Assembly: GCF_944391105.1 (NCBI RefSeq)
Contig: NZ_CALXSK010000017.1
Location: 1-64,000, forward strand
DNA: 64,000 bases
Source of the DNA: an uncultured Victivallis sp.
GTDB lineage: Bacteria; Verrucomicrobiota; Lentisphaeria; Victivallales; Victivallaceae
Reading direction: 5' to 3'
In this document: piece after piece, positions 25,143 to 47,877 of the stretch
How positions within the stretch are numbered: position 1 is the first letter of the stretch
Layout: every line of letters begins with the position of its first letter
Made by a program: the position numbers and the translations under genes
Notes under the pieces: model-generated
Seen by the model: only the letters and a program-made list of their open reading frames with translations
Told to the model about the DNA's origin: nothing
The model's database searches: none

Positions 25143-26102
25143 TCAGAAGAGCTCGCCCTGTTCCATCTCTGGAGCGGGGGGCGGGGCGGACTCGGCGGCG
25201 AAATCGAAGAGATCGGGCTCCTTTTCCGGTTCCTCCCTGCGGATTTCCGGCAGCTCTTTGAGCAGACTCTTGAGCTCCATTGCCTCGCAGATCGCGCGGA
25301 TCTTCGCCCAGTCCGGCGCGGAACGGCGCAGGTGCGGGGCGGGAGGATCGAACCGGGCTGGCAGCGTCTCCCGCAGCTGTATGAGCTTGCGGTTTTTTCG
25401 GATGAGTGCAAGATGCGGTTCGAGTTTTGCGCGGATTTTCGGGTCGGGGATCCGCGCGGGATCCTCGAGCCACTGTTCGGCCGCGCCGCAGCTGTTCAGG
25501 ATCGCCGCGGCGGTTTTCGGCCCGACCCCCGGAACTCCGGGGATGTTGTCGGAGTTGTCTCCGAGCAGTGCAAGGTAATCGACGATGCGGTCAGGCGAAA
25601 CGGCGAATTTCTCCCGGACTTTCTCTTCGTCGCGCAGTTCGAAGCCGTTCTTCTGCGCCGGGACAAGCATCTTTACCTCCGGCGTGACCAGCTGGGATAA
25701 ATCCTTGTCGGAACTCACGATGAGCACCGGACCGTCGGCGCTGCTTGCGAACGCGGCGATGAGGTCGTCAGCCTCATACTCCGGCTCCTCCAGAAGCGGC
25801 CAGCCGAATGCGGCGGCGAGTTCGCGGATCACGGGCATCTGGAGTTTGAGCTCTTCCGGCATCGGCGGACGGTTCGCCTTGTAGTCCGGCGCAAGTTCAA
25901 GCCGGAATTTGACTTTGCCGCAGTCGAAAAGCATGGCTCCCGCGGTGCCGGGGTACTCCTCTTCCAGTTTCAGCAGCAGACGGGCAAATACGAAGACGGC
26001 GTTGGTCGGTTCCCCCTTTGAATTCGAAAGGTGGCGAATCGCGTAATAGGCGCGGAAAATCTGACTGTATGCGTCGATGAGGATCAGCGGATGTTCGTTC
26101 AT
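25143..26102 (-). CDS. Stand-alone 5'-3' exonuclease (FEN/PolI N-domain type)
   Basis: A 319-residue homologue of the 5'-nuclease domain of DNA polymerase I. Metal-binding motifs are visible: ILIDAYSQIFRAYYA near the start, MLFDCGKVKFR, YEADDLIAAFA, VSSDKDLSQL and GDNSDNIPGVPGVGPKTA with its helix-hairpin-helix. The polymerase domain is absent and the C terminus is an acidic, Pro-rich tail. It would remove flaps or RNA primers. The ATG at 26102 has AGGGAG six bases upstream and lies below a TTGACA promoter. Its 3' end converges on the GH20 gene. Confidence 0.9.
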   Translation of the reverse strand: MNEHPLILIDAYSQIFRAYYAIRHLSNSKGEPTNAVFVFARLLLKLEEEYPGTAGAMLFDCGKVKFRLELAPDYKANRPPMPEELKLQMPVIRELAAAFGWPLLEEPEYEADDLIAAFASSADGPVLIVSSDKDLSQLVTPEVKMLVPAQKNGFELRDEEKVREKFAVSPDRIVDYLALLGDNSDNIPGVPGVGPKTAAAILNSCGAAEQWLEDPARIPDPKIRAKLEPHLALIRKNRKLIQLRETLPARFDPPAPHLRRSAPDWAKIRAICEAMELKSLLKELPEIRREEPEKEPDLFDFAAESAPPPAPEMEQGELF

Positions 26103-26152: not shown

Positions 26153-26300
26153 CAAAAGAAGCGGCGCCGGGAGAAAACTTTTCGCTCCCGGCGCCGTTTG
26201 CATACAAAAAGGTTCGAGGTTTGACTTTTCAGACGCTTAGAGGAGTAATTATGAAGAGGAGAAATTGCGTATAGGAGCCTGAATTGTTCAAACCTCGAAC
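26153..26300 (-). ncRNA. Predicted small RNA with three CUCCU motifs
   Basis: A self-contained transcription unit with no ORF. A TTTGAT-N17-TATAGT promoter predicts initiation at 26300, exactly where a 13-bp perfect stem starts (26300-26288 pairs with 26224-26212). The 63-base enclosed region displays CUCCU at three positions exactly 16 bases apart (plus-strand AGGAG at 26241, 26257 and 26273), and an intrinsic terminator follows (26196-26162). CUCCU loops are the anti-Shine-Dalgarno pairing sites of several known sRNAs. The sequence matches no RNA family I recognise; 6S, SRP RNA, tmRNA and RNase P do not fit. Confidence 0.55.
26162..26196 (-). terminator. Intrinsic terminator of the predicted small RNA
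   Basis: A perfect 12-bp GC-rich stem (26162-26173 with 26185-26196) around an 11-base loop, followed on the minus strand by CTTCTTTTG. Confidence 0.65.
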
Positions 26301-26306
26301 AATATT

Positions 26307-26335
26307 ACTATATGCCGAAAAAAAGGAAAATCAAA
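26307..26335 (-). promoter_or_regulatory. Promoter of the predicted small RNA
   Basis: Minus strand TTTGAT (26335-26330), a 17-base spacer and TATAGT (26312-26307), placing the start at about 26300, the first base of the 13-bp stem. Confidence 0.55.
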
Positions 26336-26453: not shown

Positions 26454-26774
26454 TCAATCCGTGGCAAGGAGCTTCAATCCGATGATTCCGGATACGATCA
26501 GCAGGAGGCAGAGAATCCGCCACAGGCCGGTTGATTCCCCGAAGAGCGCCATCCCGACGATCACCGTTCCGACTGTTCCGATTCCGGTCCAGACCGCGTA
26601 GGCGGTTCCCAGCGGCAGACTCCGCATGGACAGCGCCAGGAATCCGAGGCTCGCAAGCATGGTTCCCACAGTGAACAAGGAGGGATAGAGCCGGGTGAAT
26701 CCATGCGAATATTTCATCCCGACCGCCCAGCAGACTTCGAAAATCCCGGCAATAAACAACCAGACCCAGTTCAT
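26454..26774 (-). CDS. Small multidrug resistance family exporter (SugE/Gdx-like)
   Basis: A 106-residue four-helix membrane protein. The conserved helix-1 glutamate lies in [18 protein letters not shown], and [25 protein letters not shown] carries the signature of the guanidinium-exporter (Gdx/SugE) subgroup. It works as a dimer exchanging protons for guanidinium or small cationic compounds. AAGGAG lies five bases upstream of the ATG. No partner SMR gene is adjacent. I looked for a guanidine riboswitch upstream and found no convincing one. Confidence 0.88.
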
Positions 26775-47624: not shown

Positions 47625-47667
47625 CTTCCGCTCTCCCCCCGCAGCACTGCTGATGCTCTTCCCGCAG

Positions 47668-47698
47668 AAAAAAACGCCCCGGGAAAAATCCCCGAGGC
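47668..47698 (-). terminator. Intrinsic terminator of the tRNA-Lys pair
   Basis: Minus strand GCCTCGGG (47698-47691) pairs with CCCGGGGC (47683-47676), including one G-T pair, followed by a run of seven T residues (47674-47668). Confidence 0.8.
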
Positions 47699-47716
47699 AG
47701 TTCGCAGACAAAAAAA

Positions 47717-47792
47717 TGGTGCGCTCACGGGGACTCGAACCCAGGACCCAGTGATTAAGAGTCACTTGCTCTACCAACTGAGCTATGAGCGC
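47717..47792 (-). tRNA. tRNA-Lys(CTT), copy 2
   Basis: A 76-base cloverleaf with encoded CCA. Acceptor GCGCTCA/TGAGCGC, discriminator A, D-arm GCTC-AGTTGGTA-GAGC, anticodon stem AGTGA/TCACT around loop CTCTTAA (anticodon CTT), variable loop GGGTC and T-loop TTCGAGT. The T stem CTGGG/CCCCG has a T-C mismatch at pair 50-64. It is identical to the copy 10 bases upstream in transcription order. Confidence 0.97.
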
Positions 47793-47801
47793 ACTTAAAA
47801 A

Positions 47802-47877
47802 TGGTGCGCTCACGGGGACTCGAACCCAGGACCCAGTGATTAAGAGTCACTTGCTCTACCAACTGAGCTATGAGCGC
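47802..47877 (-). tRNA. tRNA-Lys(CTT), copy 1
   Basis: Identical to the copy at 47717-47792, giving an 85-base tandem duplication that includes the 9-base spacer. It has the same anticodon CTT, encoded CCA and T-stem mismatch, and is the promoter-proximal copy. Confidence 0.97.

Follow-up and report, generated by a model that had tools for sequence, protein, structure and literature searches.

A small-RNA gene of the Victivallaceae with two conserved CUCCUC motifs in the loop of a covarying hairpin

The window, i.e. the whole stretch of 64,000 nucleotides from an uncultured Victivallis sp. that was analysed here, carries on its minus strand a real, free-standing small-RNA gene with its own promoter and terminator, as judged from computed features from which we infer transcription. 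In this RNA it is the pairing that is conserved in the stem and the sequence in the loop, since every stem pair varies while the columns of two CUCCU-containing motifs in the loop are 96-100% conserved among 51 homologues.

Direct reading of the minus strand finds all elements described for the small-RNA gene (Table 1). An earlier note on this DNA had proposed a promoter of the form TTTGAT-N17-TATAGT, which is indeed present (26335-26307, minus strand), and a transcript start coinciding with a perfect 13-bp stem; the start expected from the position of the -10 box, at around 26300, is the first base of that stem. A -10-like hexamer with at least four of six matches precedes the 5' stem in 50 of the 51 homologues. 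The closing stem (26300-26288/26224-26212) encloses 63 nt, and the three CUCCU motifs that the note had reported in this region are present in the source sequence, starting at 26277, 26261 and 26245 and thus spaced by exactly 16 bases. Also in agreement with the note, no ATG-initiated open reading frame (ORF) was found within the small RNA by sequence reading. A covariance-model search of the window matches the RNA at 26196-26303 (E 7e-24). The plus strand of the locus folds too, as an inverted repeat would, but it lacks a U-run after the stem and its mini-ORF, an ATG preceded by a Shine-Dalgarno (SD) sequence, is unconserved among the homologues; hence we take the minus strand as the RNA strand.

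Table 1. Features of the small-RNA locus and their coordinates in the window.
Feature	Coordinates	Strand	Basis or remark
-35 box TTTGAT	26330..26335	-	sequence; position kept among homologues
-10 box TATAGT	26307..26312	-	17-nt spacer to the -35 box
Predicted small RNA, ~95 nt	26206..26300	-	ends predicted from the -10 box (5') and the U-run (3')
Closing stem, 5' arm, 13 bp perfect	26288..26300	-	fold and covariation
Inner stem, 5' arm UUCAGGC	26277..26283	-	fold and covariation
First CUCCU	26273..26277	-	in 11/51 homologues, hence unconserved
Unpaired loop, 42 nt	26235..26276	-	near-invariant across much of the Victivallaceae
Motif A UUCUCCUCUUCA	26252..26263	-	contains the second CUCCU, 26261-26257
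Motif B ACUCCUC	26240..26246	-	contains the third CUCCU, 26245-26241
Inner stem, 3' arm	26228..26234	-	fold and covariation
Closing stem, 3' arm	26212..26224	-	fold and covariation; with the U-run, probable intrinsic terminator
U-run	26206..26210	-	immediately 3' of the closing stem
12-bp GGCGCC hairpin with CUUCUUUU tail	26162..26196	-	arms 26196-26185 / 26173-26162; possible secondary terminator or insulator; closest relatives only
5'-3' exonuclease gene	25143..26102	-	Pfam PF02739 and PF01367; outside the RNA

The 151-nt region folds with -55.2 kcal/mol compared to -31.0 +/- 3.6 kcal/mol for shuffled sequences (z -6.75), and none of 200 shuffles reaches its folding stability. The minimum-energy fold consists of a 7-bp inner stem inside the 13-bp closing stem and then the open 42-nt loop. 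In the alignment of the 51 homologues, which was fitted to the covariance model and thus leans toward structure, double changes are found in all 18 modelled helix pairs (closing stem 10/10, inner stem 8/8), with 231 double-change cells observed versus 71 +/- 8 shuffled and a covariation score of 0.746 versus 0.295 in shuffles. In the same alignment 90% of the cells are paired, a fraction that drops to about 51% once the partners are shifted by one column. The first MAFFT alignment, which was not fitted to the model, shows compensatory change in 12 of 15 pairs.

A U-rich tract follows directly after the closing stem in nearly all homologues, and termination most likely takes place at the closing stem and its U-run, the large loop notwithstanding. 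The RNA would thus be about 95 nt long and not 147 nt. The earlier note had placed termination at the 12-bp GGCGCC hairpin farther downstream. While this hairpin exists, it is probably not the terminator, since the covarying closing stem precedes a U-run family-wide. The hairpin or a comparable one is seen in three close relatives only (the source genome G000, G002 and G004) and is absent from the other homologues. As the U-run of the source genome is only five long, read-through to the second hairpin may occur there.

The three-motif periodic design that the note had read from the source sequence does not extend to the family. All three CUCCU are present in 11 of the 51 homologues and the strict 16+16 spacing in 10, the first CUCCU being missing from the loop in the other 40; the triple CUCCU at strict 16-base spacing is a local trait, found in the majority of Victivallis species and a handful of others. 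What is conserved, along with the stem, is the pair formed by UUCUCCUCUUCA and ACUCCUC, 12-17 bases apart (CUCCU spacing of 16 in 39/51; 12, 13, 15 or 17 in the rest). The CUCCU is intact in 50/51 homologues in motif A and likewise in motif B, with mean unpaired probabilities of 0.96 and 0.89, respectively. CUCCUC is the complement of the strong SD sequence GAGGAG and is similar to the anti-SD tail of the Victivallis vadensis 16S rRNA, GGATCACCTCCTTTCT, in which the usual GGATCACCTCC is present. In G021, contig C17 holds two copies of the RNA (at 198 and 5762, some 5.5 kb from each other), and each of them has lost four bases between its motifs.

Short open frames are present in the core in the source genome (minus frame TTG..SYTQFLLFIITPLSV; plus frame MKRRNCV), so that a small peptide was considered as the conserved product. 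This reading is ruled out for practical purposes by frame-breaking indels: one-base insertions and motif spacings of 12, 13, 15, 16 and 17 disrupt any frame, and the plus-strand ATG is missing in several members.

The loop is by far more strongly conserved than brief pairing with an SD would require, with 24 nt identical across many genera and with an invariant UUCA and ACGCAA block, neither of which is SD-complementary. The main rival to repression by SD pairing is accordingly that the loop docks a conserved RNA-binding protein, as a sponge or assembly RNA, with the CUCCUC motifs as recognition sites; two near-identical motifs whose spacing is tolerant within 12-17 bases resemble paired protein sites. 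Yet no candidate protein emerged and the motif is exactly SD-complementary, and we consider protein docking unlikely on balance. A sponge for CsrA (Csr/Rsm) in particular is excluded, as GGA is missing from the loop.

When 60 relatives were searched at the DNA level, homologues turned up genus-wide and in much of the family; beyond the genus it is frequently the loop alone that aligns, mostly with 90-100% identity. A covariance model built from 24 aligned homologues was run on 137 genomes of the order and detects the RNA in 49, with E values down to 2e-25, and these 49 carriers represent 12 genera of a single family, the Victivallaceae. The homologue set comprises 51 copies: most genomes carry a single copy, and two genomes carry two full copies in the covariance-model search. 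The earlier expectation of a small-RNA gene whose stem and CUCCU motifs recur in relatives is thereby borne out, except for the strict motif spacing. A second covariance model run on 198 genomes of the class yielded no further confident matches, and two marginal ones (E ~0.009). The pattern TTCTCCTCTTCAN{2,9}ACTCCTC is present in 38 of the 388 genomes searched in the phylum, all of them Victivallaceae and with one match per genome among the matches listed; the reversed control pattern gives 0 matches in the 388 genomes. The carriers include the human-gut species V. vadensis DSM 14823 (G007; contig NZ_QEKH01000002.1, 38112-38219, minus strand), and no viral copies of the exact 24-base core were found. 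A degenerate, copy-like sequence, CCUCUUCAUAAUUACUgCCUCU, lies in G030 (L028, 1459-1570, minus strand) without a good stem and is possibly a decayed small RNA. Within the window, a weak covariance-model match at 47660-47750 overlaps a tRNA and was dismissed as chance; two adjacent tRNA genes on the minus strand, at 47720-47792 and 47805-47877, score equally and are probably duplicates.

Downstream of the RNA in the window lies a stand-alone 5'-3' exonuclease gene, with the PF02739 and PF01367 domains and no polymerase domain; upstream, a small multidrug resistance (SMR) transporter gene is found at 26454-26774 (minus strand). In 39 of the 51 copies the exonuclease gene follows downstream of the RNA in the same orientation, in 37 cases within 260 nt, an arrangement that would suit a 5' leader or attenuator in which the hairpin and U-run stop transcription before the exonuclease gene under some condition. 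A cis leader would always be found directly upstream of the gene it regulates, but the exonuclease gene is absent from the examined flank in 12/51 copies, several of which have a convergent gene next to them, where some of the unlinked loci are short contigs and a few are possibly misjudged. Moreover, an alternative antiterminator fold is not apparent, and in the source genome and two close relatives a further hairpin lies between the RNA and the gene. Attenuation thus appears highly improbable, and the data agree better with a free-standing RNA that has mostly kept its position by descent. The convergent or unrelated downstream genes and the two genomes with two full copies favour a trans-acting RNA.

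That the RNA would match no known family, as the earlier note had surmised, agrees with the Rfam scans: no family reached the gathering score for the source RNA and eight relatives, 6S RNA, Spot 42 and tmRNA among the models included, and a relaxed scan gave chance matches only. The main functional parallel is offered by LhrC1-5 of Listeria monocytogenes, which carry several redundant CU-rich, SD-complementary motifs and bind the ribosome-binding site; at lapB, the SD is bound through three such sites and regulation has no need of Hfq (PMC4132741). The Victivallaceae RNA is alike in being a small RNA with redundant CU-rich SD-complementary motifs, its pairing being a prediction. It differs in its architecture, since the three CUCCC motifs of LhrC, an RNA with five gene copies, are distributed among two loops and a linker, whereas the Victivallaceae RNA shows two CUCCUC in one large loop, usually has one copy and stems from an unrelated phylum; the Rfam covariance models of the LhrC family do not match it. 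The RsaE/RoxS-type UCCC small RNAs of Firmicutes also block SDs with a C-rich single-stranded motif; sequence and fold of the Victivallaceae RNA differ from theirs, in line with the negative Rfam scan. Spot 42 of enterobacteria adjoins polA and thus presents the parallel of a small-RNA gene beside a 5'-3' exonuclease or polA-type gene. However, Spot 42 uses Hfq, and the Victivallaceae RNA matches it neither in sequence nor in structure; Hfq was undetected in nine Victivallis genomes by a search that was positive in five control genomes. The CcsR or 'cuckoo' RNAs of Alphaproteobacteria share with the Victivallaceae RNA a conserved unpaired anti-SD-like C/U motif. They share a transcript with a DUF1127 gene, and RNase E processes them from a precursor (PMC10253847), whereas the Victivallaceae RNA would be transcribed singly from a promoter of its own, with the 5'-3' exonuclease and the SMR transporter and not DUF1127 as neighbours.

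Reasoning mainly by analogy with LhrC, we favour with somewhat better than even confidence, as the likeliest mechanism, an Hfq-independent trans-acting RNA whose CUCCUC motifs pair with SD sequences to repress translation. The RNA shares two features of the trans-acting anti-SD class: first, a promoter, a terminator and an independence of the downstream gene, all as computed, and second, an unpaired, conserved SD-complementary motif. In the scheme that we infer, from transcription and the exact ends to SD pairing and the repressive outcome, sigma-70-type transcription would begin at about 26300 and one long two-part hairpin would form from the 13-bp closing stem and the 7-bp inner stem. The closing stem and U-run would terminate transcription, and the 42-nt apical loop would stay open and display the two CUCCUC motifs. 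These would pair in trans with purine-rich SDs of the targets (GAGGAG, AGGAGAA) and thereby block binding of the 30S subunit without Hfq. The earlier note had proposed an anti-SD repressor or titrator: anti-SD repression indeed appears to be the most natural mechanism, although the periodic three-motif basis given for it fails.

In 864 kb of the source genome, GGAG lies upstream of 323 of 618 predicted starts, and within these 618 start regions the sites that complement the loop are most frequent immediately 5' of the start codon. The in silico pairing with start regions that the note had set in advance as a check singled out no targets: mean loop complementarity of the 618 start regions is 16.37 versus 15.96 (sd 0.48) for dinucleotide-shuffled loops, i.e. 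there is no excess, in a test that is weak because the starts follow a simple SD-favouring rule and the 864 kb are about a quarter of the genome. Nor is there an excess of conserved complementarity when orthologous start regions are compared (93 of G002 and 37 of G007), as 18% of the shuffles do equally well. The lack of excess also counts in favour of protein docking.

The strongest single site is the prmC ribosome-binding site, where 17 nt are complementary to the loop with one mismatch (GAAGAGGAGAAACTGCG at -19 to -3; L112:13244-13260, G000:C7). As a conserved target prmC was rejected, the site being gone in the other genus members with a readable start region. Antisense action on prepilin-type starts (MKRRNFTLIE..) was discarded as a general rule, as outside the small-RNA locus the source genome contains no site with fewer than three mismatches to AGGAGTAATTATGAARAGR. 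The idea had come from a prepilin-type gene of G037 (L032, ~1500), a relative from another family in which the small RNA is absent; the SD-ATG region of this gene complements a stretch of the loop core almost perfectly. GAAGAGGAGAAATTGCG is enriched in the genus relative to its reversed control, which probably reflects common codons (EEEKL) in coding regions, and this enrichment was given no weight. Pairing with 16S rRNA, for which the whole 3.1-kb locus was used, or with tmRNA was no better than that of shuffles.

The absence of an outstanding single target, the peak of complementary sites at SD positions and the resemblance of the motifs to the 16S anti-SD tail would also be expected of a global SD titrator, which would imitate the anti-SD and damp translation initiation at large instead of acting on chosen mRNAs. 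We regard this as very unlikely, since a single gene copy in most genomes would need to match mRNA abundance and the loop conservation outside CUCCUC would be left unexplained. A further reading, which we rate as quite unlikely, is that the dual-site anti-SD RNA acts throughout the family as a master regulator of translation without Hfq, either bridging or co-sequestering a pair of mRNAs (or a pair of sites in a single mRNA) through its two CUCCUC motifs or mimicking the 16S anti-SD tail. If it were true, it would represent a mode of RNA control undescribed in Lentisphaerota.

Few members of the Lentisphaerota are cultured, and in the non-subscription literature we found no described small regulatory RNA for this phylum or for Victivallis. 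In our view the Victivallaceae RNA represents a new RNA family whose functional kind is already known and whose layout, a single hairpin with a double motif, is unusual: one hairpin would serve as its own terminator and at the same time display a large, near-invariant loop with two anti-SD motifs. It has very strong comparative support and occurs in a culturable type strain from the human gut. The Victivallaceae RNA could readily be proposed as a new Rfam family and would provide a direct test of RNA-based regulation in bacteria without detectable Hfq.
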